Source: Lactiplantibacillus mudanjiangensis
GTDB lineage: Bacteria > Bacillota > Bacilli > Lactobacillales > Lactobacillaceae
Length of the DNA stretch: 64,000 nt
Direction: 5' to 3'
Assembly (NCBI RefSeq): GCF_005405385.1
Contig: NZ_BJDY01000003.1
Location: 310,001 to 374,000, forward strand
Shown here: one piece after another, positions 30,437-55,456 of the stretch
Position numbering within the stretch: the stretch's first letter is position 1
Layout: each line of letters begins with the position of its first letter
Position numbers and translations under genes: made by a program
Notes under the pieces: generated by a model
Told to the model about the DNA's origin: nothing
Database searches by the model: none
Seen by the model: only the letters and a program-made list of their open reading frames with translations

Positions 30437-30971
30437 CTAAAGACTGAAAGTTGCTTATTTAGTAATAATCGGTTGATATGGTAAGTATTCACCACTTACT
30501 TGCCACCTATCGTTCGCCCACATTGAGCCGGAACGCTGTGGGTGGACCGGTTCAGCCAAAAAGCGGTCTGAACCGTCGTTTTGAACCGCCTAACCCGCGT
30601 TTCAAAAGCGCCAGGCTCTAAGCGATAAATCACTAAGAGCTTCCCACGGCTGGGCTCAATGTGGACTCGCTCTGGTTATGATGGTGATTACGAAATTGAT
30701 TGCTATTCGCAATACAACCGGAGCCAGTCAGTGATGGCGCCGGCCGTGAAAATATCGTTAGTCCGGGTGGTTTCCCCGGACTTTACGATATGGACGACTT
30801 TTGAGACTAGTGATTTTGGCTAGGCTCAAAAGCGAGGTGGAAGCCTGCGCTTTGGCTGGAACCGGTCCCCACAGCCGGCAGAATCGCTAGCTGGCGTAGG
30901 TGATCAATTTAGCATGACTTAAGGCAATTCTAGTAAAGCTTTTACCGTCATACTTAACTTTCAACCTTTAG
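30437..30971 (-). mobile_element. Dispersed non-coding element with terminal inverted repeats, copy A (reverse)
   Basis: 535 bases of GC-rich, hairpin-rich, non-coding DNA. The ends are CTAAAGACTGAAAG (30437-30450) and CTTTCAACCTTTAG (30958-30971), inverted repeats with two mismatches. The interior is the reverse of copy B at 47154: for example, 30820-30840 complements the block at 47240-47260, and the CGATATTTTCACGGCC and CACATTGAGCCCAGCC blocks recur. It fills the gap between the flavoprotein terminator and the 3' end of the antiporter gene. It encodes no transposase, as in a MITE. Confidence 0.8.
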
Positions 30972-30979
30972 ATTTTTTG

Positions 30980-32572
30980 CTAGTTATCTGTTTGATCGGC
31001 GTCAAAAATAGTTGGCCCAATAATCAACGATTCTGCCAGTAACGTTTCGTTATAAAGTTTAAACACATAAGTCTGATATTTAACTTCTCGTTGTGAAACC
31101 ATGTCGAGATATTGCCGTTCTTGGTCGAGCGCGTTCATGAAGGCGCGCATTTCTAGTTCTTTTTCCGCGCCTGTAAATTCTGGACGGCGCACGACGCTTA
31201 CCCAAGCGCGGGTAAAATCACGTGTGCGGGTGCGTTGCTTTTGGGTCATTAAATCGAAAATAACGGATTCCTTGACGTTAGGCGGTAGATACATTTTTTG
31301 TACCGTTTCAATCGCCCGATGCACCATTTCGACCCGCAATTTATCGATTTCAGTTGTTGCTTGTTCATCGGTGACAGCCGGCTTAAGTAGCCACCGAAAA
31401 ACGATGGTGGGGACTAACATGCTTAAAATAATGAGCGTACTAGCAGCCATTAAGACTAAACGGAAATCGGCAGTTTTAATGGCAGTTTCCGTCAAGGTGT
31501 AGGCTAGCGCCAACGTGACGGCGCCATGCACACCGCCTAACGCAAAAATCCAAGCGGCCCGTTGGTTGAATTTTAAGCGGAGACGACTATAGCCAAACCG
31601 GACGACTAGATTGGCGAAGTAGAGGACGACTCCAATGAGCAGAAAGTTCCAAGAGCCGATGCCTAAGTGTTCGGTAGCGGTGATCTTAACGAACATGAAG
31701 CCCAGAATAACAAACACGATGCTGTTGAAAATTTCGGTGATCATGCCGACTAGATCAAAAGCGAAGTGCACTTGTTGCGGATTAATCAGGCGACTACGCT
31801 GCGCTTCAGCGTTATGCACTAATCCAGCGACCACAACGGCGATGATCCCAGAAACATGAATCGCTTCTGCCGTGTAGTAGAGGACAAACGGTGTCGCTAA
31901 GTAGACTAACAGTGAGGCGTTCAAGGCATTATAGGAAGAACGCAATAAGACCTGGCGAAATAAAACGATGATCCAAGCCATAACGGCGCCAAATAGCACC
32001 CCGCCGCCAGCCGATACTAGAAAGTCAATCAAGGTTTGCCCATAATTAATGCGCCCATTGACCGTCCACAAAACGGCCATATTCAACAAAATGATTCCGG
32101 AAGCATCGTTGAAGAGCGACTCCATTTTCAGAAAGGTACCTTCGGTTGGTGGCATCGTTAGGCCGTTAGTGACGGATTCCATGGCAGTGGCATCAGTGGG
32201 GGTACTTACCGCGGCTAAAATAAAGGCCAGTGGTAAACTAACCATGCCTAGTAACCGGATGCTGAAACCAGCCACAATAGTTGCAAGAATGACTAAGACC
32301 ACCGTGGTTTGAATAATGTGTTTAAGCTCTTTACCAACGGCATTTAATCGGGTTGCTTGGCCTTCAAAAAAGAGCAATGGTGCCACAATTAGGCCAATAA
32401 AAATTTCTGAATCAAACTTCTCAATGTGATGACTCAATACTGGAATCAGATAGAGTCCGACCCCAACGAGCATGCTAATATAGTTGACCGAAATCTTGGT
32501 TAAGACGCGTGAAGCGAAAATACTGATAATAGCGGCTAAAACCAGAATGAACGTCGAAAGCATCAGATGCAT
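30980..32572 (-). CDS. CPA1-family Na+(K+)/H+ antiporter (NhaP-like)
   Basis: Encodes 530 residues: about twelve transmembrane helices in residues 1-390, then a 140-residue cytoplasmic tail with many charged residues. Core helices include VSTPTDATAMESV and FLKMESLFNDASGIILLN, the Asn-Asp ion-binding pair typical of CPA1 exchangers. It exchanges monovalent cations for protons at the membrane, relevant to acid and salt tolerance. Monocistronic; its 3' end lies 9 bases from the inverted repeat of element copy A. The ribosome site is weak (GAGGGGGTGTTG before the ATG). Confidence 0.86.
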   Translation of the reverse strand: MHLMLSTFILVLAAIISIFASRVLTKISVNYISMLVGVGLYLIPVLSHHIEKFDSEIFIGLIVAPLLFFEGQATRLNAVGKELKHIIQTTVVLVILATIVAGFSIRLLGMVSLPLAFILAAVSTPTDATAMESVTNGLTMPPTEGTFLKMESLFNDASGIILLNMAVLWTVNGRINYGQTLIDFLVSAGGGVLFGAVMAWIIVLFRQVLLRSSYNALNASLLVYLATPFVLYYTAEAIHVSGIIAVVVAGLVHNAEAQRSRLINPQQVHFAFDLVGMITEIFNSIVFVILGFMFVKITATEHLGIGSWNFLLIGVVLYFANLVVRFGYSRLRLKFNQRAAWIFALGGVHGAVTLALAYTLTETAIKTADFRLVLMAASTLIILSMLVPTIVFRWLLKPAVTDEQATTEIDKLRVEMVHRAIETVQKMYLPPNVKESVIFDLMTQKQRTRTRDFTRAWVSVVRRPEFTGAEKELEMRAFMNALDQERQYLDMVSQREVKYQTYVFKLYNETLLAESLIIGPTIFDADQTDN

Positions 32573-32655
32573 CAGTCAACACCCCCTCTGTTTTTTAATG
32601 ATCAACTTATTGTACCTGTTGTGTGCGAAAGGCTGAATTAAAGAGTCCTTAAATT

Positions 32656-32709
32656 AAAACCCAGCAAGCTAAAATTGCGGTGATCGCAACCTTAGCTAGC
32701 TGGGTTTTA
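32656..32709. terminator. Bidirectional hairpin between the antiporter gene and larO
   Basis: AAAACCCAGC-AGCTAA pairs with TTAGCT-AGCTGGGTTTT (one unpaired base per side), with an inner GCGGTGATCGC hairpin and flanking A/T runs. A parS site follows after three bases. Confidence 0.8.
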
Positions 32710-32712
32710 AAA

Positions 32713-32728
32713 TGTTTCACGTGAAACA
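32713..32728. other. parS site (perfect)
   Basis: TGTTTCACGTGAAACA between a terminator and the last codons of larO. Confidence 0.92.
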
Positions 32729-32735
32729 AAGGGGG

Positions 32736-33467
32736 CTATAAAGTCATTAATTGTGCTTGTAAATCAGGGAGTGTCGCTAACTCGCTGGCAGTGACATCAG
32801 CGGTGACCTGGTGATCGGCATTAAAAATTAGGAATCGCTGACCCACCGGTTGAACTTGTTGAAAGTTGTGACTGGCCATAATGATGGTTTTACCAGCAGC
32901 TTGTAATTGTTGCAGCAAGGTTAACATCTGCTGTTGAGCCGCGATGGTGAGGCCGTTAAGTGGTTCGTCTAACAATAAAACTTGCGGATTTAGTGCCAGC
33001 ACACTCGCTAAGGCGACCCGTTTCTTTTCCCCACCAGAAAGTTGGTAGGGGACACGATCGCGTAAATCAGCACTGCGCGTTAAGGCCAAACAATCGTTAA
33101 TGCGCTTAGTCACTTCACTCGGTGATAGTCCAAGTTGTTGGGGACCAAAGGCGACTTCTTCAGCAACCGTTGGATTAAATAATTGCACATCGGTATTTTG
33201 AAAAACCATCCCAATTTGTTGATGAAGTTGTTGGCGTTTTACCGCATCCGCTAAGTAGCCTGAATCAACTAACTGTTGATTAAAATGGTAAGTCCCTTGA
33301 GTAGCCGTTGCTAGGCCGCTTAACAAGCGTAGTAAAGTTGATTTGCCAGAACCATTTGGCCCCATTAAACAGACGAATTCACCGGGATTGATGGTTAAGC
33401 TTAAAGACGCTAGGCCGCAAGTATTGGGGTAGTCATAACTTAGATCCGTTAAGTCAATTAATGCCAA
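32736..33467 (-). CDS. larO: LarO, ATPase of the nickel ECF-type transporter
   Basis: Encodes 243 residues. The TTG at 33467 is preferred, eight bases after GGAGG; a longer frame to 33482 would contain that site. Walker A GPNGSGKST, signature LSGGEKKRV, Walker B VLLLDEPLNG and the His switch ASHNF are intact, as in CbiO-type ATPases. With LarMN and LarQ it imports Ni2+ for the LarA pincer cofactor. It overlaps the larQ end by 14 bp, so translation is coupled. In L. plantarum the lar genes are controlled by LarR and by L-lactate. Confidence 0.93.
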   Translation of the reverse strand: MALIDLTDLSYDYPNTCGLASLSLTINPGEFVCLMGPNGSGKSTLLRLLSGLATATQGTYHFNQQLVDSGYLADAVKRQQLHQQIGMVFQNTDVQLFNPTVAEEVAFGPQQLGLSPSEVTKRINDCLALTRSADLRDRVPYQLSGGEKKRVALASVLALNPQVLLLDEPLNGLTIAAQQQMLTLLQQLQAAGKTIIMASHNFQQVQPVGQRFLIFNADHQVTADVTASELATLPDLQAQLMTL

Positions 33468-34287
33468 AATAATGTCCTCCAAACAGCCACAAGCCCATTA
33501 ATAGCAAACTAGGACTGACGGCCAAGTAGTCACGCCAACGATTGGTGGCAGTGGCTTTAACGTATTGTCCGTTGAAGCCGCGAGCCTCCATTGCAGCGTA
33601 AAGTTCCAAGGCATAGGTGTAGCTTTTTAAATAAAGATTGCCGAATAAGGCCCCGATTAAGTGATAAGGATGTCGCGCTGGCGCCACCAAACGCAAATCC
33701 ATGGCTTCAGTGGTTTGCAATAAATATTGACCAAGCATTCGTAAATAAATCATGGCAATTGCCAACGTCATGATGATGACATTGGGACAATGCCAAGCTT
33801 TTAATCCAGTCAAAATAGCTGCAAAAGGCGTTGTTAAACGAAAATGCAGGGCCTGCGCCAGCATTAAGCTGGTTTTGAGTCCAAAGAAGAGCACCGTTGT
33901 GGGTCCTGCCAACCAATAACTTGGTAAGACGACCAGGCCAGCAACTAGGCAATCCAGTAGCCAATGACGACCAAAATAACGGAGTTGGCGTGGCGGCAAT
34001 AGCATGAGTTGTATGCCGAGCATTAGGCCTAATAGCCATAACCAACTTGGACTTTGAACGCTGGCAATCAGTCCAAGCATTAAACCTAAACGTAAAAGTT
34101 TAGCTTGAGCTGACAAGTGCCAGTTGCTGGTGACAACTGGTGCTGGTTGGGCTAATCGTCGTAATAAATGGCGTAACCGGCGTTGATTATGTGCTAAAAA
34201 TTGTCGGGAATAGCGTCGTCGAATTTTAGTCGGCGGCGTTGGCCGTTGTAGCCAGTTTGGTAGTTCAGTTTTTGGGTTGGGGATCAT
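33454..34287 (-). CDS. larQ: LarQ, transmembrane (CbiQ-like) component of the nickel transporter
   Basis: Encodes 277 residues. A basic N-terminal 75 residues precede five or six transmembrane helices; the family coupling motif is the Ala-Arg-Gly segment AMEARGFNGQYVKAT near the end, which contacts the ATPase. Both ends overlap neighbours (larMN by 23 bp, larO by 14 bp). GAGG lies ten bases before the ATG. Together with LarMN and LarO it makes an energy-coupling Ni2+ importer. Confidence 0.92.
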   Translation of the reverse strand: MIPNPKTELPNWLQRPTPPTKIRRRYSRQFLAHNQRRLRHLLRRLAQPAPVVTSNWHLSAQAKLLRLGLMLGLIASVQSPSWLWLLGLMLGIQLMLLPPRQLRYFGRHWLLDCLVAGLVVLPSYWLAGPTTVLFFGLKTSLMLAQALHFRLTTPFAAILTGLKAWHCPNVIIMTLAIAMIYLRMLGQYLLQTTEAMDLRLVAPARHPYHLIGALFGNLYLKSYTYALELYAAMEARGFNGQYVKATATNRWRDYLAVSPSLLLMGLWLFGGHYFGIN

Positions 34288-35248
34288 GTTGTAAACCTCG
34301 AATCAATAAGCCGAAAATCACGATCGCAGTTAAGGCCGATAAAATGTAGCCTAAGCTCACCGGTAAGCCGGCAATCGCATAATCACTAAATAACGCTTGG
34401 AAATGAAAACCGTGGGCCATCCCTTGTGGGACTTGAGCAGCCAAATGTTGTTGTGCCAGTAAGTGTTTCAACTCACTAGGTCCCCATTCCCCCCAAGCAG
34501 TATTGCTAGCCAGTAAACCAAGTGGTGTCAAGATGGCTAGCCCGAGTAATAGGCCCAGCCACCGGCGTTGACTCGTTTTAGGTGCCGTTTGATAGAGGCT
34601 AGTTGGCGCCACTTTTTGGACAAATTGATAAACTAACAAGGTGAAGCCGACCTCAACCCAACCAGCAACGAGTAAGTGCGCGCCAAGCATGGCGGGAACG
34701 GCAATGTTCAAGCCATAGGGGCAATAAAGGGGGGCGCCACTAGCTGTATGCGCAATTAAGGGCTGTAAACCGAGCTCAATACCGGCAACCAGTGCTGCGG
34801 TATTGATGCCAAGGTAAGCACCGATGGCTAAACCTACTTTTGGATGATGCCACTTTTGTCCAAGGCGATAGCAAGCATAGCCGACAAATGGCATGATGAC
34901 CGCCATATTGAGCGCATTGGCGCCAAAGGCCAAAATACCGCCATCACCAAAGAGTAGTGCCTGTAGGAATAAGGTGACGGTCAAAGCTAAACATGCCGCC
35001 CAAGGGCCAATGAGTACGGCTAACAAAGTACCACCGACCGCATGAGCAGTAGTGCCACCAGGAATCGGTAAATTAAACATCATGATTAAAAACGCCAGTG
35101 AAGCGGCGATCCCCAACATGGGTAATGTTTCACGCTGACGTTTGAGTTGAACTTTAACTTTTAAAACCGCCACAGTCCAAATGGGGACCATCGCGGTAAC
35201 CAGCGTCCCACAAGTAGCGGGGCTTAAATAATTATCCGGAATATGCAC
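34265..35248 (-). CDS. larMN: LarMN, fused CbiM/CbiN-type nickel substrate-binding membrane protein
   Basis: Encodes 327 residues. The N-terminus MHIPD is the metal-binding start of CbiM/NikM proteins, where the His2 side chain and terminal amine coordinate Ni2+ or Co2+; helices of the CbiM part follow (NLPIPGGTTAHAVGG). The last 100 residues form a CbiN-like part with an extracellular loop between two helices, here fused in one chain. It follows larR by 14 bp. Confidence 0.93.
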   Translation of the reverse strand: MHIPDNYLSPATCGTLVTAMVPIWTVAVLKVKVQLKRQRETLPMLGIAASLAFLIMMFNLPIPGGTTAHAVGGTLLAVLIGPWAACLALTVTLFLQALLFGDGGILAFGANALNMAVIMPFVGYACYRLGQKWHHPKVGLAIGAYLGINTAALVAGIELGLQPLIAHTASGAPLYCPYGLNIAVPAMLGAHLLVAGWVEVGFTLLVYQFVQKVAPTSLYQTAPKTSQRRWLGLLLGLAILTPLGLLASNTAWGEWGPSELKHLLAQQHLAAQVPQGMAHGFHFQALFSDYAIAGLPVSLGYILSALTAIVIFGLLIRGLQHDPQPKN

Positions 35249-35262
35249 GGATGAGCACCTCT

Positions 35263-35928
35263 TTAATTTGCAATTTGATCTAAGAGGTAGCTAATATCTT
35301 GAATAACAAATTTGTGATTTTTGACTGAGAGCACGCCGTCTTCACGTAGTTCTTTGAGCATCCGATTGACACTGCTTCGGGAACTAATGCCACAGAATCC
35401 GGCAATATCATCGTTAGTCACCACGAAATCAATTAAAATGCCATCTTTAATTTTGCGGCCGAATAGGTCCACAAGACTATAAATAAACGCACAAATAGCG
35501 CCTTTCTTCCCATTCATAACCATTCGTTGTAGGCGAAAAATATTTTCAGACAACTTTTTTCGATAGTAGTTTTTAACGTAGTTTTGTAATTCTGGTGTTC
35601 GATTAACGTACTTCCAGAAATCCACGCGATTCACTTGATAAAAAGTCGCATAGTCAGATTCAATTCGGACGTTGAATGGTTGATCCGTTGACCGGGAGAC
35701 TTCGTCACGCAATAACGAGATCACATCGGGTTTGGCAATATAGGATAAGTTAAACTCGCGACCATCTTGCAAGATGATGCTGTTTTTAATGATGCCATCT
35801 TTTAAAACATACGTATAATGTTCGGCCAAACCGTGATACGTCAAATACGTATGACGCTTTTTTTGAATGGTCGGCACGTGGTGCGCCTCTAAATAGCTTA
35901 ATAAGTATTCAATATCTGTTAGTACCAT
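35263..35928 (-). CDS. larR: LarR, Crp/Fnr-family regulator of lactate racemase genes
   Basis: Encodes 221 residues: an N-terminal cyclic-nucleotide-binding-like beta roll (DGIIKNSIILQDGREFNLSY) and a C-terminal winged helix-turn-helix (DDIAGFCGISSRSSVNRMLKEL). There is no Cys cluster of the Fnr type. In L. plantarum LarR activates the lar operon at a favourable L- to D-lactate ratio. It is divergent from larA, with likely operators in the 223-bp gap (35929-36151). No strong ribosome site is visible before the ATG. Confidence 0.92.
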   Translation of the reverse strand: MVLTDIEYLLSYLEAHHVPTIQKKRHTYLTYHGLAEHYTYVLKDGIIKNSIILQDGREFNLSYIAKPDVISLLRDEVSRSTDQPFNVRIESDYATFYQVNRVDFWKYVNRTPELQNYVKNYYRKKLSENIFRLQRMVMNGKKGAICAFIYSLVDLFGRKIKDGILIDFVVTNDDIAGFCGISSRSSVNRMLKELREDGVLSVKNHKFVIQDISYLLDQIAN

Positions 35929-36025
35929 CTTAGATTCAGTTCTTTCATTTATGAGATTAGGGCGGCGATTGACCGAAAACTAATCACTCTGCCCATCATA
36001 CCGTTTTTTGAAATCGAGACAATCG

Positions 36026-36070
36026 CATTTAAAGTATACATTTGTTAACACGTTTTGAACACTTTAAATG
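36026..36070. promoter_or_regulatory. Candidate LarR operator (inverted repeat) in the larR-larA gap
   Basis: CATTTAAAGT (36026-36035) and ACTTTAAATG (36061-36070) are perfect 10-bp inverted repeats 25 bases apart; TGTTAACA (36043-36050) lies close to the centre. The arrangement fits divergent regulation by a dimeric or multimeric regulator. Assignment to LarR is inferred from position. Confidence 0.5.
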
Positions 36071-36151
36071 TCACGGACAAGTTGATTAGAAACGCGTATA
36101 ACCAGAGCTACGTGTTAAAAAATTAATTGATGAAAGAGGATGCCCAATACC

Positions 36152-37426
36152 ATGGTTGCAATCAAGCTACCTTATGACAAAACCACGTTGACCGCTGAAA
36201 TACCAGCTGCAAATTTTGCTGGTAAATTAGTTTCGCAAGCGGCAACATATCATAACAAACTCTCTGAAAGTGAAACAGTTGAAAAATCGTTAGACAACCC
36301 GATCGGGACGCCTAGCTTAGAAAGTCTCGCAAAAGGCAAAACCAATATCGTGATTATCAGTTCAGATCACACACGGCCAGTACCGTCACACATTATCACG
36401 CCGATTTTGTTACGGCGGTTACGATCGGTGGCACCAGATGCACGGATTCGGATTTTAGTGGCGACTGGTTTTCACCGGCCATCAACCCATGAAGAATTAG
36501 TTAACAAATATGGTGAAGATATTGTGGCTAATGAAGAGATCGTGATGCATGTGTCTACCGATGATGACAGTATGGTCAAAATTGGCCAATTACCTTCTGG
36601 TGGTGATTGCATTATTAATAAAGTTGCGGCGGAAGCCGACTTACTTATTTCTGAAGGGTTCATCGAATCGCATTTCTTTGCCGGTTTTTCCGGTGGTCGA
36701 AAATCGGTCTTGCCAGGGATTGCGTCTTATAAAACGATTATGGCTAACCATTCTGGGGAATTTATTAACTCACCAAAAGCGCGGACCGGGAATTTAATGC
36801 ATAATCCGATCCATCATGACATGGTCTATGCGGCGCGGACCGCGAAGTTGGCGTTTATCGTTAATGTTGTTTTAGACGAAGATAAAAAGATCATCGGCTC
36901 ATTTGCTGGTGATATGGAAGCTGCCCACAAGGTCGGATGTGATTTTGTCAAAGACTTGTCTAGTGTCCCCGCAATTCCTTGCGACATCGCCATTTCAACT
37001 AATGGGGGCTACCCATTAGATCAAAACATTTATCAAGCCGTTAAAGGGATGACAGCGGCGGAAGCGACTAACAAAGAAGGTGGCACGATTGTGATGGTTG
37101 CTGGGGCTCGTGATGGTCACGGTGGTGAAGGGTTCTACCATAATCTAGCTGATGTTGATGATCCTAAAGACTTTTTAGATCAAGCCATTAATACGCCACG
37201 ACTAAAGACAATTCCTGATCAATGGACGGCGCAAATTTTTGCCCGGATCTTGGTTCATCATCATGTCATTTTTGTGTCAGATTTAGTTGATCCAGACTTA
37301 ATTACAGGGATGCATATGGAATTAGCTAAAACCTTGGATGAAGCCATGACAAAAGCCTATGAGCGTGAAGGTCAGGATGCTAAAGTTACCGTTGTGCCTG
37401 ATGGGCTTGGCGTGATCGTCAAGTAA
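36152..37426 (+). CDS. larA: Lactate racemase LarA (nickel-pincer enzyme)
   Basis: Encodes 424 residues from the ATG at 36152, which places His108, His174, Lys184 and His200 at exactly the L. plantarum LarA positions; the ATG at 36140 touches the GAGG site and would shift this. LarA interconverts L- and D-lactate using a nickel pincer derived from nicotinic acid, bound through Lys184 ([11 protein letters not shown]) and His200. D-lactate is needed for the D-Ala-D-Lac wall of this group. It heads the larABCDE operon, divergent from larR. Confidence 0.97.
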
Positions 37427-37427
37427 G

Positions 37428-38165
37428 ATGACGACGTTAGATATTTTACAGGCAGTGGCGGCTGGGCAACTAACGCCCACCGCGGCTAGCGCACAACTAG
37501 AAGCCAGTCAAACTGCCGACTTGGGTTTTGCCAACGTTGATTTAAGTCGTCAACAGCGCAATGGTGTGCCGGAAGTCGTTTACGGTGCCGGTAAAACGGC
37601 CACTCAAATTGTTGGGATCATTCAAGCGATGCCCAAACAAATCACGCCGATTTTGACGACGCGATTGTCGGCCGAAAAATTTGCAGCGCTGCAACCCGCA
37701 TTACCACAAGCGGTGTATCATGCGGCAGCCCAATGTATGACGGTGGGGACCTTACCAACGCCAGCCACGGACGATTACATCGCTGTCGTGACGGCCGGAA
37801 CCTCTGATCAACCGGTGGCCGAAGAAGCAGCCATTACAGCTCAAGCTTTTGGCAATCATGTTGAACGGGTCTACGATGTCGGTGTGGCAGGGATTCATCG
37901 TTTGTTTGCCAAGCTGGATGTCATCCGCGGTGCCAAAGTGGTCATCGTTATTGCTGGCATGGAGGGCGCGCTGGCTAGTGTGGTTGGTGGTTTGATTGAT
38001 AAACCACTAATTGCGGTGCCCACGAGTGTTGGCTATGGGACGAACTTTCAAGGCATGACAGCGTTACTTACGATGCTCAATAGCTGTGCTTCTGGGATTA
38101 CCGTTGTCAATATTGATAATGGGTTTGGTGCCGCTTATTCAGCAAGTATGATTAATCAATTGTAG
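37428..38165 (+). CDS. larB: LarB, nicotinic acid adenine dinucleotide carboxylase/hydrolase
   Basis: Encodes 245 residues. LarB carboxylates the pyridinium ring of NaAD and cleaves the phosphoanhydride, the first step of pincer synthesis. The C-terminal PurE-like domain is seen ([31 protein letters not shown]). Cys220 in NSCASGI corresponds to the catalytic cysteine. The gene starts one base after the larA stop with no good ribosome site, so it depends on translational coupling. Confidence 0.96.
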
Positions 38166-38201
38166 AAAAATTCAGTTAACTGAACAAAGGAGGTACTTGA
38201 C

Positions 38202-39490: not shown

Positions 39491-39493
39491 TCG

Positions 39494-40210: not shown

Positions 40211-40233
40211 TTAAAATGAAGAAGGCAATTATA

Positions 40234-41199: not shown

Positions 41200-41271
41200 T
41201 AGTTAAAATCTATGGTTGACGATAACGGTTACAACCGCTACACTGAATGCATACAAATAGTTATCTTAAAC

Positions 41272-41361
41272 ACTAGGGGTGTCCGTAGTCGGGCTGAGAC
41301 GGTGCAAGTGCGCACCGATCCCTTCGAACCTGTAAGTTCAGACTTGCGTAGGGAAAGTGTC
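41272..41361 (+). promoter_or_regulatory. TPP riboswitch (THI box)
   Basis: Core blocks GGGGTG, GGGCTGAGA, a GGTGC-loop-GCACC arm, CCCTTCGAACCTG and GCGTAGGGAA are in the correct order. It controls the thiM-thiD-thiE-cytX operon by thiamine pyrophosphate. Confidence 0.96.
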
Positions 41362-41376
41362 ACTGCAGCTTTATTT

Positions 41377-44935: not shown

Positions 44936-45063
44936 GTTTACTTTAAAGACACATTATTTCCCGGGGAATATTTCTAGTTTCACCGAGTAATCTAACCGGT
45001 GTTTTCTGCGCATTAGGCGTAAAATAAAGCTAGTTAAACAAACCATATTAAAAGGGGGGACTG

Positions 45064-46083: not shown

Positions 46084-46109
46084 GTTTTTAAGGCTAGCCA
46101 ACTTTTCGG

Positions 46110-46138
46110 TTGACAATTGTAATCAATAAATTTAATCT
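46110..46138 (+). promoter_or_regulatory. Promoter of the T-box / C26 peptidase gene
   Basis: TTGACA (46110-46115), a 17-base spacer and TAATCT (46133-46138); transcription would begin near 46146, about 40 bases before stem I of the T-box. Confidence 0.6.
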
Positions 46139-46182
46139 ATAACTAACCAAACAACCATTTAATTTTAATTATTAATAACAAT

Positions 46183-46398
46183 GATGAGCAGAGTACGTGT
46201 GGCGGGCTAGACTAGCGACTGTCGACAGTGAAAGGGCAGCTAGACCAAATACGGAAGATGGGCTCGGAGTATTACTAGTGTGAGCTAGTGCGCATGGTCG
46301 CGATAGGAACCAGCTGAGGTGACGAATTGTCACAAGTCAGGGTGGTACCGCGAAACCAATCGTCCCTGCAGGCAAGTTGATGCCTGTAGGGATTTTTC
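46183..46398 (+). promoter_or_regulatory. T-box riboswitch leader of the C26 peptidase gene
   Basis: GGTGGTACCGCG (46341-46352) is the antiterminator sequence, followed by the terminator TCCCTGCAGGCA / TGCCTGTAGGGA and T-run to 46397. Stem I has a GAGC / GCTC base, AGTA on the 5' side of the specifier loop, and CGTGT / ATACG above it. The opposite strand reads GAAGAUGG: GAU (Asp; 46257-46259) directly after the GAA bulge or AUG (Met; 46258-46260) are the specifier choices. The frame that runs through the leader from 46319 is not coding. Confidence 0.93.
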
Positions 46399-46429
46399 TT
46401 GGCAAAAAAGAGAGGGAGTCGTGTTTAAA

Positions 46430-47164
46430 ATGAGTAAACCAATTATTGGGATTGCGCCGGGTGTCATTACCGTCAATAGTCAAATCTTTCCTGGACGGCA
46501 ACGAGACTATGTCAATCGCGTCTATTTGCGGTCGATTTCAGATAATGGTGGGATACCGTTGATGTTGCCAGTGACTGATGATGCTGACACGATTGCCCGC
46601 TACGTCGGCTTAATCGATGGGTTATTACTATGTGGTGGCGACGATATTGATCCGCTAACTTATGGCGAAGAACCATTAGCCAAGTTAAGCCAGATCGATC
46701 CAGAACGAGATGCCTATGAACAAGCCTTGGTTCAAGCCACGCATGCACAGCACAAGCCGATTTTGGGCATTTGTCGCGGCGTGCAACTCTTGAATGCGTG
46801 TTATGGCGGGACGTTGTACCAAGATACCAGTTATATGCCGGCCGGTCAGGGGACCTTAAAGCATATGCAATTACAACATCCCGATTATGGGATGCACCAT
46901 ATTGACGTTGAAGCTGATTCGATATTAGCTGAGTGGCTGGGACAAACTAAACTGACAGTCAATTCATTTCATCATCAGACATTAAAACAAGTGGCATCGG
47001 GATTTAAAGCCGTTGCTAGTGCACCCGATCAAGTCATCGAAGCGATTGAATCAACCGCAGGCGGCTTACAATTAGGGGTGCAATGGCATCCTGAAGAAAT
47101 GCAGGCAGTTAATCCCGTGATGGCGCAATTATTTAAACATTTTATTCAAGTAACTAAAGGTTGA
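46430..47164 (+). CDS. Peptidase C26 / class I glutamine amidotransferase (gamma-glutamyl-GABA hydrolase-like)
   Basis: Encodes 244 residues from the ATG at 46430 (GGGAG 12 bases upstream). LLCGGDDIDPLTYGEEP, the nucleophile elbow LGICRGVQLLN (Cys), NSFHHQ and GVQWHPEEM (His, Glu) match PuuD-type gamma-glutamyl hydrolases. These release glutamate from gamma-glutamyl amides. No puu operon accompanies it; T-box control ties it to an amino acid shortage. The stop codon TGA (47162-47164) lies inside the left inverted repeat of element copy B. Confidence 0.87.
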   Translation: MSKPIIGIAPGVITVNSQIFPGRQRDYVNRVYLRSISDNGGIPLMLPVTDDADTIARYVGLIDGLLLCGGDDIDPLTYGEEPLAKLSQIDPERDAYEQALVQATHAQHKPILGICRGVQLLNACYGGTLYQDTSYMPAGQGTLKHMQLQHPDYGMHHIDVEADSILAEWLGQTKLTVNSFHHQTLKQVASGFKAVASAPDQVIEAIESTAGGLQLGVQWHPEEMQAVNPVMAQLFKHFIQVTKG

Positions 47165-47653
47165 AAGTTAACTATGTCACCTACGCCAGCCAGCGATTCT
47201 GCCGGCTGTGGGACCGGTTCCAGCCAAAGTGCGGGCTTTCCACCTCGCTTTTGAGCCTAGCTAAAACCGCTAGTCTTAAAAGTCGTCCATATCGTAAGTC
47301 CGGGAAAATCATCCGGACTAACGATATTTTCACGGCCAGCGCCATCACTGGCTGACTTCGGTTATTTCGCGAACACAAACTGATCTAGTCACCACTATCA
47401 TAACCGAGAGTGAGCTCACATTGAGCCCAGCCATGGGAGTCTCTTAGCGATTTATCGCTTAGAGCTCGGCGCTTTTGAAACGTGGGTTTGACGGTTCAAA
47501 ACGATGGTCGAGACCGTTTTGTGGCTCGACCAGTTCGTCCACAGCGTTCCGGCTCGATGTGGGTGAATGGCAGGTGGCAAGCATAACTATTTTTGATTGG
47601 TAAACACTTGCCATATCAATGATAGTTGCTAAAATACACCTTTCAACCTTTAG
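47154..47653 (+). mobile_element. Dispersed non-coding element with terminal inverted repeats, copy B (full length)
   Basis: 500 bases ending in perfect 14-bp inverted repeats CTAAAGGTTGAAAG (47154-47167) and CTTTCAACCTTTAG (47640-47653). Immediate flanks are TCAAGTAA and TCAAGCAA, a possible 8-bp target duplication with one change. The interior has several hairpins, including an ATATCG-CCGG palindromic block around 47300-47335 and TAGCGATTTATCGCTTAGAGC. No frame longer than about 65 codons is credible. It lies between the C26 gene and the OppA lipoprotein gene. Confidence 0.85.
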
Positions 47654-47700
47654 TCAAGCAACTACATTAAAATAATGGGTTTTAAGTTAGGGGTAAATAT

Positions 47701-49329: not shown

Positions 49330-49340
49330 ACGAGTTGTTA

Positions 49341-49374
49341 ATCGTTCAGTCTGAGATGACTGAGCGATTTTTTT
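49341..49374 (+). terminator. Terminator of the OppA lipoprotein gene
   Basis: ATCGTTCAGTC pairs with GACTGAGCGAT (one G-T), loop TGAGAT, followed by a T-run. Confidence 0.88.
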
Positions 49375-49502
49375 GTCCTCAGAGGTATTTTATACAGTAT
49401 ATTTCGAATAAAATGCATAAAAATACTTTTATTTCAAAAAATATTGTATTAATAATCATTAACGCTTATACTTGGTTTAATTTTGTAACGGAGGCAAGCG
49501 GG

Positions 49503-50981
49503 ATGAAAAAAGGACAGTTAGGCGTTTGGTTGCTGGGAATAGTGAGCTTAATCATGCTGATGGGCGGATTAAACTTGTCAGTCCATGCAGCAACTAGCGA
49601 TCAATCATTGGCACGTGTCAAAGCCAAAGGGACGTTGGTTATGGGAACATCACCGAATTACCCACCATATGAATTTCAGATCAATGAGCATGGACAAGCT
49701 AAGATTGTGGGGATGGATGTCGAATTGGGCAAACAGATTGCTCATGATCTAGGCGTTAAGTTGGTCGTTAAGAAGCTGGCATTTGACTCATTACTGCCGG
49801 CTTTAACGACTGGTAAAGTAGATATGATTTTATCTGGCATGAGCCCAACACCAGCCCGACGTAAGAGTGTTGATTTTACCAACATTTACTATACCGAAGG
49901 CGAGGCGTTGCTGGTTAATCGGGCAGACCAGGCTAAGTATGCGAATAAAAAAGCTTTAGCGGGTCAAAAAGTCGCTGCCGAAACTGGCACGCTACAATAT
50001 AATTTAATCAAACAACAGCTTCCAGCTGCCAAATTAACCGGGATGAGTAGTGCGGCTAATTTAATTTTGGCGTTAAAGACCCATAAAGTGGCGGCCGTGG
50101 TTAAAGGAACAGCCTCAGCGACGGCGTATGCTAAAAATGATCCAAGTTTAGTGGCGATTAATGGTCACTTTAAAACCAGTACGGCCCAAGCGGGGAATGC
50201 GATTGCCTTGAAAAAAGGATCAACTAGCTTGAAGCAAGCGATTAATCGATCGTTAGCTAAGGTTAAACGGCATGGCTGGATTCAAAAGCGGTATTTAAAA
50301 ACGGCCGGAAAATACTTAAAGGTGAATACGGCTAATACGTCAATGTGGCATTATCGTGATTATTTCATTAAGGGTTTGCAATATACGTTATTGATTGCTG
50401 TAGTGGGGATTATTACGGGGAGTATCTTAGGCTTGTTATTAACCTTATTACGGGTGAGTGCCGGTCGACCACTGCGCTGGTTAGCAACGGCCTATGTTGA
50501 ATTCGTTCGTGGGACACCACTTATGGTTCAAATTATGTTCGTCTACTTTGGCATTGGGATGTTTGTCGATGTCTCGGCCTTAACAGCCGGGATGATTGCG
50601 ATTGGCTTGAATAGCGCGGCCTATTTGAGCGAGATTATCCGGGGCGGTATTCAAGCCGTGGATAAAGGGCAAACCGAAGCCGCTGCCAGTCTCGGATTAT
50701 CGCAATGGGCCACGTTACGTTATGTGGTTTTACCACAAACTTTGAAAATCATTTGGCCATCACTGGGTAACCAATTCATTAACCTGATCAAAGATACGTC
50801 AATGGTCTCGATCATTGGGGTCACAGAATTGATTTATCAATTAGGTATTGTGCAAGCTGATACGTATCGGGGCGTGGCACCAATTGGGGTAGCGATGGTG
50901 ATTTACTTTGTTATCTGTTGGCTATTGACACGGGTATTGCGGTATTATGAACGACGGATTAATCATGGTCAAACCGTTTAG
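49503..50981 (+). CDS. Fused amino-acid ABC transporter substrate-binding and permease protein
   Basis: Encodes 492 residues from the ATG at 49503, preceded by GGAGG at 49490; the longer frame to 49320 runs through the terminator and is rejected. Signal peptide to about residue 31, SBP_bac_3 domain about 35-270 (NYPPYEFQ, DMILSGMSPTPARRKSVDFT), then a polar amino-acid permease domain (about 285-490) with the EAA-type loop EAAASLGLSQWATLRYVVLPQ. The fusion tethers the binding protein to its channel, as in GlnPH. The ATPase is not adjacent. The substrate is probably a polar amino acid. Confidence 0.9.
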   Translation: MKKGQLGVWLLGIVSLIMLMGGLNLSVHAATSDQSLARVKAKGTLVMGTSPNYPPYEFQINEHGQAKIVGMDVELGKQIAHDLGVKLVVKKLAFDSLLPALTTGKVDMILSGMSPTPARRKSVDFTNIYYTEGEALLVNRADQAKYANKKALAGQKVAAETGTLQYNLIKQQLPAAKLTGMSSAANLILALKTHKVAAVVKGTASATAYAKNDPSLVAINGHFKTSTAQAGNAIALKKGSTSLKQAINRSLAKVKRHGWIQKRYLKTAGKYLKVNTANTSMWHYRDYFIKGLQYTLLIAVVGIITGSILGLLLTLLRVSAGRPLRWLATAYVEFVRGTPLMVQIMFVYFGIGMFVDVSALTAGMIAIGLNSAAYLSEIIRGGIQAVDKGQTEAAASLGLSQWATLRYVVLPQTLKIIWPSLGNQFINLIKDTSMVSIIGVTELIYQLGIVQADTYRGVAPIGVAMVIYFVICWLLTRVLRYYERRINHGQTV

Positions 50982-51054
50982 CATGCGCCTACCGATTTTA
51001 AACGAATGGTGGTAGGATAAAAGCAAGGTTACAAATAAAAAACGGGGTGATCGA

Positions 51055-52317
51055 ATGAAGTGGCGCATTGGGTTGTTGACACTTATTGCAGGTTTGGCAC
51101 TGGGGAGTGTCGGTGGTCAGGCGGCGAGTCGACCTAAGAGTGACTGGTTGCATGCAAAGGGTAATCGAATTGTGGATGCACGGGGCAAAACGGTTCGGAT
51201 TACGGGGTTAAATTGGTTTTGGTATAACACTGGGACCAATACGTTTGATGGACTATGGACCGCGAACTTAGATAAGACGGTTAAATCGGTGGCTAATCAT
51301 GGATTTAATACGATTCGGGTGCCATTTTCTGTTCAATTGGTAAAAGCTTGGTCACAGAAAAAGTATCCCAAGGCGAACATTAATTTAAGTACCAATGCCG
51401 CTTTGAAGGGCAAAAATAGTTTACAGATCTGGCAACGGTTCTTGGCTGATTGCCAGAAAAATGGGATTAAAGTCATCATTGATATGCATAGTGCCAAGAG
51501 TGATCCACAAGGCCACAATGCACCATTATGGAAATCCGGTAAATATACCACTAAAGACTATTATGCGGCGTTAACTTGGTTAGCTAAGCGTTACAAGAAG
51601 AATGATACGATCATTGGTTATGACTTGAAGAATGAACCACATGGCCTCGTGACTGATGCCAGCTATGCGAAATGGGACGGCTCCAAAGCAAGTAACAACT
51701 GGCGCTATATCGCCGCTCAAGCGGGTAAGAAAGTGTTGAAAGCTAATCCGCATGCGTTGATCTTCGTCGAAGGGGTTCAAAGCACCCCGAAGAGTTGGAA
51801 GACTGGCTATAAGAAGTCAGCGCAATACAACTACACGTTGTGGGGTGCCAACTTACGTGGGGTCGCTAAATATCCAGTCAAGGTGAAGAAGTCACAACTG
51901 GTCTATTCGATTCATGATTACGGTCCTAGTGTGGCACCAGGGAGCTCATGGTTACAAGGTAACTTTACTTACAATTCATTGATGAAGAACTACTGGCGGC
52001 CGAACTGGTACTTTATTCATGCGAAGAAGACCGCACCATTGTACATTGGTGAATGGGGCGGCTACTTAACCGGTAGCAATCTGAAATGGATGAAAGCTGA
52101 ACGTAAGTTGATTACGACGCATAAGTTGAACTTTACGTTCTGGTGCTTGAATAACAACTCCGGTGATACTGGTGGCTTGTTGAATAGCGACTGGACGACT
52201 TGGAATAGCAAGTTATACAAGTTCGTGAAACCGACTCTTTGGCAATCGAAGAAGGGTCAATTCTACAGTCTAGACGGTCAAGTTAAATTAGGGACCAAAG
52301 GTTTACGGAAACCATAA
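51055..52317 (+). CDS. Secreted glycoside hydrolase family 5 endoglucanase-like enzyme
   Basis: Encodes 420 residues with a signal peptide (cut near GGQAAS, residue 25). The GH5 fold is clear: RITGLNWFW, TIRVPFS, VIIDMHSAKSDPQGHNAPLW, YDLKNEPHG with acid/base Glu194, HDYGP, and nucleophile Glu333 in LYIGEWGGY. GH5 enzymes of this type cut beta-1,4-glucan or mixed-linkage glucan. There is no carbohydrate-binding module or anchor. GGGGTGATCG precedes the ATG. It is a plant-fibre trait that is uncommon in lactobacilli. Confidence 0.88.
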   Translation: MKWRIGLLTLIAGLALGSVGGQAASRPKSDWLHAKGNRIVDARGKTVRITGLNWFWYNTGTNTFDGLWTANLDKTVKSVANHGFNTIRVPFSVQLVKAWSQKKYPKANINLSTNAALKGKNSLQIWQRFLADCQKNGIKVIIDMHSAKSDPQGHNAPLWKSGKYTTKDYYAALTWLAKRYKKNDTIIGYDLKNEPHGLVTDASYAKWDGSKASNNWRYIAAQAGKKVLKANPHALIFVEGVQSTPKSWKTGYKKSAQYNYTLWGANLRGVAKYPVKVKKSQLVYSIHDYGPSVAPGSSWLQGNFTYNSLMKNYWRPNWYFIHAKKTAPLYIGEWGGYLTGSNLKWMKAERKLITTHKLNFTFWCLNNNSGDTGGLLNSDWTTWNSKLYKFVKPTLWQSKKGQFYSLDGQVKLGTKGLRKP

Positions 52318-52322
52318 ATTTC

Positions 52323-52363
52323 AAAGAGGATGTCCAGTTAAAATGACTGAACATCCTCTTTTT
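52323..52363. terminator. Bidirectional terminator
   Basis: AAAGAGGATGTCCAGT pairs with ACTGAACATCCTCTTT (one mismatch), then a T-run; shared by the converging GH5 and Nudix genes. Confidence 0.88.
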
Positions 52364-52367
52364 ATGT

Positions 52368-52823
52368 TTATTTTTTAATAAATTCAGCGGCTGCCGCTAA
52401 CATATCGGCTGTTTGTTGGTTCATTAATGGGGGTAAGTTGTCAAAGTCAAAGTAATCTAGGCGCACCGTTTCGTCAGTGGCCTCGTCTAACACATGACCA
52501 CCAACGGCGCGAACCAAGAAGAGTCGTGAGATGGTCTGGGTGACGTCCCCATTGGGATAGACGGTTTCGCCACGATCAAAGAGTCCAATGGGGGCGACAA
52601 TTTCAACATCAACGCCGCTATCTTCACGATATTCACGAACACAGGCTTCGGCGAAGGTTTCCCCATATTCGAGATAGCCACCTGGTAGGCTCCAGTCATG
52701 AGTGTCGGTCCGTAAGTTCAATAAAACTTGTTGCTGATCATTCACTAGAATGCCGGCGGCCGTATTTAACAGTAACGGTTTGTGCCCAACTAAAGCGCGA
52801 ATTTCTTGGATATAATTTGCCAT
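52368..52823 (-). CDS. Nudix hydrolase
   Basis: Encodes 151 residues from the ATG at 52823, which follows GAAGAAAG; the longer frame to 52856 adds 11 residues without a site. The Nudix box is present as Gly-x5-Glu-x7-Arg-Glu-x2-Glu-Asp-x-Gly-Val, with Asp in place of the last catalytic Glu. Such enzymes hydrolyse nucleoside diphosphate derivatives; the exact substrate cannot be predicted. It is single, convergent with GH5. Confidence 0.86.
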   Translation of the reverse strand: MANYIQEIRALVGHKPLLLNTAAGILVNDQQQVLLNLRTDTHDWSLPGGYLEYGETFAEACVREYREDSGVDVEIVAPIGLFDRGETVYPNGDVTQTISRLFLVRAVGGHVLDEATDETVRLDYFDFDNLPPLMNQQTADMLAAAAEFIKK

Positions 52824-53045
52824 CGAATCACAACTTTCTTCATAGGATAAGTCCATTATACGCGAAAATAAGTCGGGGTTGATTTGTAAATTAAATTTTA
52901 CTAAGAATGACTAAAGCCGCAGTGTGGCGCATTTATCAGCTTTTAAAGTGAAAATACCGAGTTGCGTATCAGTATTTTTTTAGTTAACATGGAAGTTATA
53001 GCTTATTTGGGCTAGTGTTCTTTATTAACGAAAAGAGAGAAGTTT

Positions 53046-54407
53046 ATGCAAAGAAAATTAAGTACGGGCCAGATGCAGATGATTGCACTGGGCGGCACGA
53101 TCGGGGTGGGACTCTTCATGGGGTCGAGCTCGACGATCAAATGGACGGGGCCGTCGGTGTTAATTGCGTATCTCATTTCAGGCGCCTTTTTGTATCTGAT
53201 TATGCGGGCCCTCGGGGAAATGCTGTATGTCGATCCCAATACCGGTTCATTTGCGAAGTTTGCTTCCGAGTATATTCATCCAGTTTTTGGCTTTTTGACG
53301 GCATGGAGTAATGTTTTCCAATTTGTCGTGGTTGGGATGAGTGAAATGATCGCCCTGGGTGGTTATTGTCGCTACTGGTGGCCTAACTTGCCGGACTGGG
53401 TTCCAGGACTCATTGCGATTGTTTTCCTATGTTTAGCTAATTTGATTTCGGTCAAAATGTTTGGGACGTTGGAAACCTGGTTCTCACTTATTAAAGTGGT
53501 CACGATTATCTTAATGATTATTGCCGGCTTAGGGTTAATTCTCTTTGGGTTTGGGAATAATGGTCATGCGATTGGGATTAGTAACTTATGGTCACATGGG
53601 TTCTTTACCGGTGGGGTCAAAGGGTTTGTCTTCGCACTGTCAATTGTGTTGGCCTCCTATCAAGGTATCGAATTGATTGGGGTCACCGCTGGGGAAGCTG
53701 AAAATCCACAAAGTACCTTGGTTAAAGCGATTCGTTCAACGGTTGCCCGCATTTTGATCTTTTATGTCGGCGCAATCTTCGTGATTGTCAGCATTTATCC
53801 ATGGGACAAATTAAGTCAAATTGGCTCACCATTCGTTCAAACGTTTGCCAAGATTGGGATTACCGCTGCCGCTTCGATTATTAACTTCGTGGTGATTACG
53901 GCGTCCTTATCCGGGACGAATTCCGGGATCTATAGTGCGAGTCGGATGACATACACGTTGGCTGAAAATCGCCAATTACCAAAAAAGATGACCTTGTTAA
54001 ACCGGCATGGGGTGCCATTTTATGCCGTGATCGCTATTTCGGTCGGTATCTTGATCGGGGTTGTCTTAAACGTTATTTTGCCGATGTTTTTCAAAGATGC
54101 CAGTGAAATCTTCGTGATGGTTTATAGTTCTAGTGTCTTGCCGGGGATGGTCCCGTGGTTTGTGATCTTGGTTAGTCAAATTGCGTTTCGTAAACAAAAT
54201 GCAGATAAAATGGCCAATCATCCGTTTAAAATGCCATTATCACCTTACTCAAACTATTTAACGTTAGCATTTTTGGCGTTAACGTTGGTCTTCATGTTCA
54301 TCAATCCAGAAACACGGTACTCAATCTTAGTTGGGGTCGTTTTCTTAGCGATTATGACGTTGATCTATTTCCGAAAATATCATCACCGAACCATTAGTGA
54401 GGATTAA
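53046..54407 (+). CDS. Amino acid permease (APC superfamily, AAT family)
   Basis: Encodes 453 residues with twelve transmembrane helices. The first helix GGTIGVGLFMGSS and ALGEMLYVDPNTGSFAKFA are AAT-family landmarks; ENPQSTLVKAI lies in the loop after helix 6. It imports an amino acid by proton symport; relatives take up aromatic, basic or small neutral amino acids and the choice cannot be made here. GAGAGAAG precedes the ATG. Monocistronic, ending with a terminator at 54410. Confidence 0.88.
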   Translation: MQRKLSTGQMQMIALGGTIGVGLFMGSSSTIKWTGPSVLIAYLISGAFLYLIMRALGEMLYVDPNTGSFAKFASEYIHPVFGFLTAWSNVFQFVVVGMSEMIALGGYCRYWWPNLPDWVPGLIAIVFLCLANLISVKMFGTLETWFSLIKVVTIILMIIAGLGLILFGFGNNGHAIGISNLWSHGFFTGGVKGFVFALSIVLASYQGIELIGVTAGEAENPQSTLVKAIRSTVARILIFYVGAIFVIVSIYPWDKLSQIGSPFVQTFAKIGITAAASIINFVVITASLSGTNSGIYSASRMTYTLAENRQLPKKMTLLNRHGVPFYAVIAISVGILIGVVLNVILPMFFKDASEIFVMVYSSSVLPGMVPWFVILVSQIAFRKQNADKMANHPFKMPLSPYSNYLTLAFLALTLVFMFINPETRYSILVGVVFLAIMTLIYFRKYHHRTISED

Positions 54408-54409
54408 TC

Positions 54410-54442
54410 AAAAGCCGTGTCGATTAACGATGCGGCTTTTTT
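54410..54442 (+). terminator. Terminator of the amino acid permease gene
   Basis: AAAAGCCG-TG-TCG pairs with CGA-TG-CGGCTTTT, followed by T-run. Confidence 0.8.
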
Positions 54443-54496
54443 ATTTGGCTTTTAGGCGTTAAAATGGAAACTATTCAATTAACGGAGGACATCGGG

Positions 54497-55177
54497 ATGG
54501 TTAAACAAGGACATTATGCGAAAGCTAGTCGTAAAAAAGTGGTGCGGCAGTTTAAACAACATCACGCGGCGCATGAAGATCAAGCAATTGATGACCGTAA
54601 AGTGAAAGACTATTTATTGGTCCGCTACCATTTGACGCAATCCAAGCATCAACGGGTCGTGATTCAAAAGACGATGCAACAATTCTTTGGTCAGTGGTTA
54701 GATTTTGCGACAACGAATGATGAGGCACCTGCTTGGGACGTAGCGGCACTCACCGAACGCACCTTGCAATTAACCAATTGGCAATTGCCGTGGCAATATT
54801 ATGCGGTGCTCGACCAACAGTTTGCAACGTGGCAAGCCTTTTTAGTTAAGGAAGCACCGGCCGTACCGTTGACCACTCGGTTACGTGTGACGACCACGTT
54901 GACACCGGCAGCTTGGCAGCAGTTATTAACCCAGCAATTGGCGATTAATGGATTGTTAGGATCGCTAGGTGGCGATGCCCAAAAGCTGCCACAATTGACC
55001 ACAGCGCAAGTTGAGCAATTACAAACATCGCTGCAGACTGATGATCAAGTGAACTGGGCCCAAGTTGCCGCTTTATGTGGGCCGATTAAAATTGACATGG
55101 CGGCTTTTGATCAAGGGATGCAAGGGCTGTTGCGACGCTTAGCAAAATTAACGGCGGCCGACTTTGGTAAAGATTAG
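54497..55177 (+). CDS. Uncharacterised soluble protein
   Basis: Encodes 226 residues from the ATG at 54497, nine bases after GGAGG (the frame extends to 54464 without a site). Rich in Gln, Leu and Ala, mostly helical by appearance, with a basic N-terminus (KQGHYAKASRKKVVRQFKQ) and repeated Leu-Thr-x-x-Gln segments. No signal peptide, membrane helix, or known catalytic motif. It sits alone between two terminators. I do not recognise it; a conserved lactobacillus protein is likely. Confidence 0.6.
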   Translation: MVKQGHYAKASRKKVVRQFKQHHAAHEDQAIDDRKVKDYLLVRYHLTQSKHQRVVIQKTMQQFFGQWLDFATTNDEAPAWDVAALTERTLQLTNWQLPWQYYAVLDQQFATWQAFLVKEAPAVPLTTRLRVTTTLTPAAWQQLLTQQLAINGLLGSLGGDAQKLPQLTTAQVEQLQTSLQTDDQVNWAQVAALCGPIKIDMAAFDQGMQGLLRRLAKLTAADFGKD

Positions 55178-55185
55178 TGTGATTT

Positions 55186-55220
55186 AAAATGACCTGAACA
55201 ACGCGTTCAGGTCATTTTTT
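55186..55220 (+). terminator. Terminator upstream of element copy C
   Basis: AAAATGACCTGAAC-AACGC-GTTCAGGTCATTTTTT. Element copy C begins nine bases later. Confidence 0.9.
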
Positions 55221-55228
55221 ACTAGTTT

Positions 55229-55456
55229 CTAAAGCCACCTGTGGGGACCAGCTCCAGCCAAAAATCGGGCTTCCACCTCGCTTTTAAGCCTAGCCAACAC
55301 CGCTAAGTCTTAAAAGTCATCCATATCGTAAAATCCGGATGGTTTTGCCGGACTTTACGATATTTTCACGGCCGGTGCCATCACTAACTGGCTCCGGTTA
55401 TATCGCGGATGTTAATTAAGTTTGTGCTTACTAATAAGGTAACTTTCAACCTTTAG
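55229..55456 (+). mobile_element. Dispersed non-coding element, copy C (shortened)
   Basis: 228 bases. The right end CTTTCAACCTTTAG (55443-55456) is the perfect inverted repeat; the left end keeps only CTAAAG. The interior matches the first half of copy B (55273-55293 against 47240-47260, one change; the same TCCGG-palindrome and CACGGCCGGTGCCATCAC), and the second half is missing. The right repeat contains the stop codon of the MFS gene on the other strand. Confidence 0.8.

Follow-up and report, generated by a model that had tools for sequence, protein, structure and literature searches.

Relationship to described repeats

RUP and BOX of Streptococcus pneumoniae are bacterial miniature inverted-repeat transposable elements (MITEs), short, non-coding and present in high copy number; RUP is regarded as being mobilized by an insertion sequence (IS), and BOX is modular and structured. 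The attC sites of integrons are recombination DNA conserved not as sequence but as a single-strand fold with unpaired bases; each is one hairpin that an integrase recognizes. Both RUP and BOX appear in a table of PMC2267715. Repetitive extragenic palindromes (REPs) and bacterial interspersed mosaic elements (BIMEs) are described, in parts of PMC3733652, as palindromic units that also occur as dimers, in high copy number and mostly in intergenic regions between convergent or unidirectional genes; REPs are palindromes of 20-40 bp, many of them tied to RAYT tyrosine transposases. Here we describe a family of repeats with three copies in a 64,000-nucleotide stretch of the Lactiplantibacillus mudanjiangensis genome (NZ_BJDY01000003.1, positions 310,001 to 374,000; hereafter the window). 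Comparison of the copies makes it probable that the family is a ~540-bp non-autonomous element that is moved by an IS4-type transposase and carries, at gene ends, a conserved core that most likely folds as DNA. The core spans ~400 bp and consists of two homologous modules of ~165 nt, A and B, on opposite strands.

The window family resembles RUP and BOX in being non-coding and of high copy number but is larger, contains two inverted ~165-nt multi-arm modules, spans genera and persists without transposon ends. With REP/BIME it shares palindromic units in high copy at intergenic gene ends; it differs in that its unit is a ~165-nt cloverleaf, not a 20-40 bp palindrome with a GTAG or CGTC tag, and its likely mobilizer a DDE transposase. 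Conservation as a fold is also a feature of attC, which is one hairpin whereas the modules are multi-arm. Judged by titles and the opening lines of abstracts, a literature search showed no comparable MITE or structured repeat from Lactobacillus, although it took in few subscription papers and an earlier description is possible. The MITE family is real and its autonomous partner was found in relatives; the cargo is the unusual part.

Copy number and signs of transposition

The 14-bp terminal repeat occurs, with at most one mismatch, at 132 sites of the genome to which the window belongs (3.29 Mb in 13 contigs; the host genome), and the reversed pattern, used as a control, at none. The same genome contains at least 150 matches to the covariance model of the modules, R1 (150 scored of 1038 candidates), nearly all of them A modules by score. 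BLASTN with copy 2 against the host genome, as proposed with the original prediction, gave 41 matches (40 of 223 first-look candidates scored). That prediction, made from the letters of the window alone, held that three regions share a terminal repeat and belong to a numerous MITE-like family. Direct reading bears out the common repeat, copy 3 having its right end only, and the genome-wide numbers of ends and modules, together with the target duplications, confirm the family.

The host-genome sample comprised 92 A-type modules (90 fetched loci and two window pieces), 47 of which are flanked by both ends at up to four mismatches each. Exact target duplications of 7-9 bp were present in 25 of these 47 copies (7 bp in 12, 8 bp in 11 and 9 bp in two), compared with 5 of 2162 mismatched flank pairs. 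The gene upstream of copy 2 is present in 20 of the 21 genomes of the genus, the host genome included. No module was found in 19 of 20 copy-2 loci of other genomes; the remaining one (L307), itself a short second match, was not searched. In 10 of the 18 copy-2 loci read, the same downstream gene follows with nothing between, and the closest relative locus (L288, genome G006) runs uninterrupted across the insertion site. Copy 2 therefore occupies a site that is empty in relatives. Mobility of the repeats as a non-coding MITE family is thus well supported.

Two other origins of the distribution were considered and rejected. Spread by plasmids or phages would leave similar DNA in the plasmid and phage collections, in which none was found, although records near the host genome may be missing there; the exact module pattern was likewise not found in viral contigs. 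Several sites looked common to species, as orthologous, vertically inherited insertions would be, but in two of four read by eye (L005/L091 and L116/L042) the elements lie one gap apart, and modules at seemingly shared sites are not specially alike, so that independent insertion into tolerant gene-end gaps is the simpler explanation.

One host-genome locus (L273, 812-1004; C5:158111) is a 193-bp derivative that has lost both modules and kept both ends; flanked by exact 8-bp duplicates (TAACATAT), it amounts to a natural element made of ends only.

The autonomous relative

A family-wide search with the end plus one base gave matches in 38 of 301 genomes and 12 of 40 genera (reversed control: single matches in four genomes) and showed pairs of ends ~1565 bp apart. 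Insertion sequences of 1562-1567 bp whose 14-bp ends are identical to those of the MITE were found as five copies in five genomes (G008, G077, G156, G179, and G201) of three genera, each having a single open frame of 459 or 482 codons. The original prediction had suggested looking for a full-length, transposase-bearing element with these ends, and such a relative thus exists. The transposase matches NCBIfam IS4_4 with 481.5 bits (cut-off 250) and also Pfam DDE_5 and DDE_Tnp_1. Target duplications of 7-8 bp were present in six of seven IS copies checked (by eye in L055, L056, L057 and L063; also L075 and L076; none exact in L054), and duplications of the IS length are found at the MITE as well.

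Members of the ISPepr1 subgroup measure 1500-1600 bp, have direct repeats of 7-8 bp, ends of the form YT-AA-YTT---A and a YREK motif, according to a table in PMC2266710. The autonomous relative agrees in size, duplication length and YREK motif, the last complete by eye in the protein P0001 (Y-GR-R-WQI-E-CYFKVA-K). Its 5'-CT ends agree with seven of the eight fixed letters, position 7 being G and not Y. By these features it is an IS4-family, ISPepr1-type IS. The closest IS-named relative seen was ISTeha4 of Tetragenococcus, whose transposase is 39% identical and at both of whose ends CTAAAACTTGAAA occurs. Any transposase match was found in 7 of the 21 genomes of the genus.

Only the ends are common to IS and MITE. 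The modules had no match in the IS copies L054-L057 and L063, and MITE-IS similarity in 20 stretches amounted to 17-23 bp at the ends plus one 77-bp match at 71%, so the MITE core is unrelated to the IS and its interior is not a deletion product of it. From the ends, the duplications, the empty site and the autonomous IS we infer transposition itself. The 14-bp ends would be recognized in trans by the ISPepr1-type DDE transposase, which would cut the MITE and paste it into sites that are AT-rich by eye and mostly 3' of genes, duplicating 7-9 bp.

Two further loci carry these ends or this transposase. A Lactiplantibacillus plantarum plasmid (NZ_CP035114.1, L233) contains an IS copy without a listed gene that is 97% identical to the G008 transposase over 91% of its length, in two pieces. 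In genome G299 (L058, 725-3999), two facing ends 3275 bp apart surround a 762-codon frame that is helicase-like by eye; no target duplication was seen, and these may be two separate ends or a cargo element.

Structure of the core

Each module comprises an outer stem (P1), a stem with GGAC/GTCC (P2) and three hairpins (P3, P4, and P5), the P3 loop being AGCC-AAAGTGC-GGTCT. When 24 modules were aligned with MAFFT, both partners had changed in 25 of 40 pairs (133 cells compared with 42.6 ± 5.4 when shuffled), and sliding the structure along the alignment lowered the paired fraction from 91.5% to at most 46.4%. In the model-guided alignment of 95 modules, covariation extends to 38 of 40 pairs (812 cells compared with 198 ± 14). 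Covariation across these alignments shows each module to be a closed cloverleaf. Single-sequence minimum-energy folds do not contain all five stems in some modules (e.g., L010, L013 and, at L023, module B). Inspection by eye of a possible kissing interaction that would join the loops of P3 and P4 led to its rejection. The modules match no described Rfam family: in the window only a thiamine pyrophosphate (TPP) riboswitch reaches its gathering score, and the best E-value in the stretch around copy 2 was 3.4.

The two modules face each other. The order is convergent in all 70 opposite-strand pairs of the host-genome sample (41 in one genomic orientation and 29 in the other), a count of opposite-strand partners only; 22 A modules have no such partner. 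It is also convergent at all 24 distinct sites with two separate matches within ~800 bp, one of them in the host genome, not counting a palindromic double match and a pair separated by 1.2 kb. Same-strand neighboring modules also occur, at L194 and L199 of genus g29.

Many modules are found without transposon ends. A near-perfect end was not nearby for 99 of the 150 listed modules, as judged against the 100 end sites listed out of 132, and 23 of 32 module pairs in other genomes had no 14-bp end (up to two mismatches) within 220 bp on either side. No other set of ends was convincing within 220 bp of the end-less pairs of other species. The 14-bp repeat therefore marks one mobile form, and the conserved unit is the inner double cloverleaf. 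The original prediction had defined its family by the 14-bp ends: further copies exist as it expected, but many modules do not have such ends. Its hairpin-rich blocks proved to be the double cloverleaf, which it had missed as a unit.

The end-less pairs, in other genomes as in many host-genome copies, would also fit a core that is an independent mobile element with a mechanism of its own and that later acquired IS4-type ends as a vehicle, the more so as the core has a short inverted repeat of its own at its borders, with the host-genome consensus CACCTAC / GTAGGTG. At core-only copies, however, no duplication or common end was noticed, decayed ends are still recognizable in some (e.g., L005), and no encoded enzyme was identified; we regard such an origin as decidedly unlikely.

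Folding of the core and its position at gene ends

Covariation that supports a multi-arm fold usually counts as proof of functional RNA. Modules could act as orientation-independent 3' structures (terminator, mRNA stabilizer or processing site) in read-through transcripts, and besides strong folding and covariation the genomic context agrees with such a role. Of 85 placed copies among the 92, 43 lie between convergent genes, 36 in tandem and six in divergent gaps (three further modules lie inside an open reading frame (ORF) and four were unplaced); the window's own gaps, elements included, number 10 convergent, 17 tandem and 10 divergent. Median distances from stop codon to module were 74-134 bp in four groups, and the convergent order would let a transcript from either neighbor reach a sense module first. 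Mobile elements accumulate at gene ends anyway, which counts against reading the position as a sign of RNA function.

An RNA stem tolerates G-U and not A-C, so stems acting as RNA should show unequal counts of G-T and A-C. The 95 modules contain 93 G-T and 100 A-C combinations (3191 Watson-Crick, 192 other), and the MAFFT-only alignment of P2-P5 contains 14 and 22 (736 Watson-Crick, 41 other). Low-frequency changes in host-genome copies created G-T and A-C in ratios of 65:92 (module A, P3 omitted) and 62:70 (module B). In contrast, a control of TPP riboswitches of the same genus (30 of 41 found) gave 102 G-T and 21 A-C (632 Watson-Crick, 17 other; Fisher p 4e-10). Wobble pairs are thus not favored on one functional strand of the modules, and the sense strand is the more stable in only 11 of 95 modules vs. 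29 of 30 TPP riboswitches. The riboswitch in the window (41265-41372, plus strand; 66.5 bits) is part of this control. Action as RNA therefore appears unlikely.

Internal deletions point the same way as the pair counts. The 110 host-genome loci contain 26 internal deletions, and 40 of their 52 endpoints fall within stem-base zones, which make up a third of the element with a 6-bp margin; 10 of the 26 connect the two P1 arms of a single module. Deletions drawn from all microhomologies of at least 5 nt would give fractions of 0.32 for stem-zone endpoints and 0.06 for P1-to-P1 deletions. Such scars are a trace of slippage across folded single-strand DNA. Equal G-T and A-C counts and deletions that start and end at stem bases suggest folding of DNA, and the fold is most likely adopted by DNA rather than by RNA.

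Several points weigh against this interpretation or against transposition. Strand symmetry could also arise from RNA obliged to fold from either strand, which would be symmetric too, so that RNA is disfavored and no more; template switching in palindromes could yield covariation without selection. Fitting the 95 modules to the model biases their alignment toward its structure. With respect to the deletions, L126/L136 and L267/L283 share junctions and may not be independent, the stem zones were drawn with the stems already known, breakpoints can be placed only to within the microhomology length, and the choice of loci by module restricts deletion positions in the first 90. Both-ended copies without an exact 7-9 bp duplication number 22 of 47, window copies 1 and 2 included. 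Of 20 end-containing stretches that have no A module, several are deletion derivatives, and core-less copies are under-counted because sampled copies were picked by module similarity. Finally, no intact transposase was found in the host genome, only a fossil (residues 3-59 and 430-459) that adjoins one transposon end (L079 from 1342; C2:537758 onwards).

On the DNA reading that we favor, the core is the cargo of the element, and its convergent, inverted cloverleaves would be formed by DNA, either as a cruciform or, during replication, as hairpins of single-stranded DNA. The function we infer for the modules, by analogy with REP/BIME, is most likely to serve at gene ends as a structure that DNA-acting proteins recognize, and the element would at the same time travel as a selfish MITE. 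At least 150 modules in one genome and members in 10 sampled genera combine strong covariation that lacks the wobble asymmetry of RNA with scars of deletion at the bases of stems. Should the folded molecule be DNA, these modules would provide a natural setting in which to study what processes in the cell recognize hairpins or cruciforms of DNA, how dispersed repeats stay intact in many copies and how far covariation alone is trustworthy. The type of mobilizer can be named, an ISPepr1-type transposase, and is testable in food-grade bacteria.

Retention and possible exchange of the core

Conservation of the core was compared between 31 end-intact copies and 39 decayed copies, defined as having the module pair without both ends at up to two mismatches, a few of which keep one fairly good end. 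Identity to the consensus in decayed copies was 0.64-0.67 in the left flank (0.60-0.68 in shuffled flanks) and 0.71-0.80 in the right flank (0.63-0.79), that is, at or slightly over the level of shuffled flanks. Their core (consensus 61-480, spacer excepted) reached 0.84-0.98, about as in end-intact copies. Uniform neutral decay would not leave ends at chance level beside modules at 90%; the core is probably subject to selection acting on inserted copies, to exchange among copies or to both. Age alone was rejected as the explanation of decayed ends as not clean, the spacer (256-285) being poorly conserved in intact and decayed copies alike. End loss through deletion would explain part of the pattern.

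Plain MITEs without function, their hairpins held by a mutation bias in which template switching perfects palindromes, would account for strict Watson-Crick complementarity without strand preference. The modules nevertheless keep particular mismatches: in the 95 modules, a C faces a T in P4 (94%, 95%) and an A faces an A in P5 (92%, 91%), while adjacent pairs change on both sides. Junction letters are also conserved, and spacer and ends are near chance where the modules remain at ~0.9. We consider a functionless core very improbable.

Gene conversion between copies, perhaps triggered by cruciform breaks, could homogenize cores while ends drift. In end-intact copies, distances at the left end correlate with those at the right end (rho 0.58), and those of module A correlate with neither module B (-0.09) nor the left end (0.03); linkage among common sites is near zero beyond 40 bp, and modules group mostly by genome. 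The weak correlations of module A and the loss of linkage fit gene conversion and, equally, recurrent mutation at a few tolerated sites. Module B, moreover, correlates with the right end (0.54), and no conversion tract was demonstrated, so that homogenization by conversion seems somewhat unlikely as the main account.

A broader proposal, which we put forward tentatively as a possibility, is that the modules represent an undescribed class of dispersed repeat of the Lactobacillaceae: a ~165-nt DNA cloverleaf in convergent pairs at gene ends that would be recognized as folded DNA by host or selfish machinery, homogenized within each genome and only sometimes borne by an IS4-type MITE.

Taxonomic distribution

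Matches to R1 were detected in 19 of the 21 genomes of the genus; the two without a module match at E 1e-3 are G001 and G002. Modules were found in 46 of 201 genomes of the family, in 10 of 40 sampled genera, and in 6 of 246 genomes of the order, all six within the family. In the family and order searches, only 14 and 11 candidates per genome were scored, under stricter filters, and a missing match there carries little weight. Among named carriers, an exact core pattern occurs in species of Levilactobacillus, Companilactobacillus and Lactiplantibacillus (fabifermentans, herbarum) and in one metagenome-assembled genome.

The three copies in the window

The features of the window copies are compiled in Table 1. 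Copy 2 is a variant without ~45 bp of the left subterminal part present in full-length copies (~540 bp). Copy 3 keeps only CTAAAG of its left end and has no second module, and is therefore a truncated copy. Copies 1 and 2 contain no transposase gene; the longest ORF starting within them has 65 amino acids in a mechanical ORF list. On either strand, copy 2 folds with an energy far lower than that of 100 shuffles (z -9.9 and -8.7).

Table 1. Repeat copies in the window and their parts (coordinates refer to the window).
Feature	Position	Strand	Remarks
MITE copy 1, 535 bp	30437..30971	-	module A on minus strand, module B on plus strand
Copy 1, left terminal inverted repeat	30437..30450	+	CTAAAGACTGAAAG; 2 mismatches; sequence read directly
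Copy 1, module B (short-arm cloverleaf)	30516..30666	+	R1 66.2 bits
Copy 1, module A (cloverleaf)	30727..30894	-	R1 153.3 bits
Copy 1, right terminal inverted repeat	30958..30971	-	exact
MITE copy 2, 500 bp	47154..47653	+	flanks TCAAGTAA / TCAAGCAA, an 8-bp duplication with one mismatch; empty site in relatives
Copy 2, left terminal inverted repeat	47154..47167	+	exact
Copy 2, module A	47186..47352	+	R1 150.9 bits
Copy 2, module B	47414..47564	-	R1 56.5 bits
Copy 2, right terminal inverted repeat	47640..47653	-	exact
MITE copy 3, truncated (left end and module B lost)	55229..55456	+	sequence read directly and R1
Copy 3, module A	55218..55388	+	R1 99.2 bits
Copy 3, right terminal inverted repeat	55443..55456	-	exact

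The ORF upstream of copy 2 (46319-47164) stops at a TGA (47162-47164) within the left terminal repeat, so the insertion of copy 2 altered the end of that ORF. Relatives have another tail, and the 14-bp end holds TAA and TGA in two frames.

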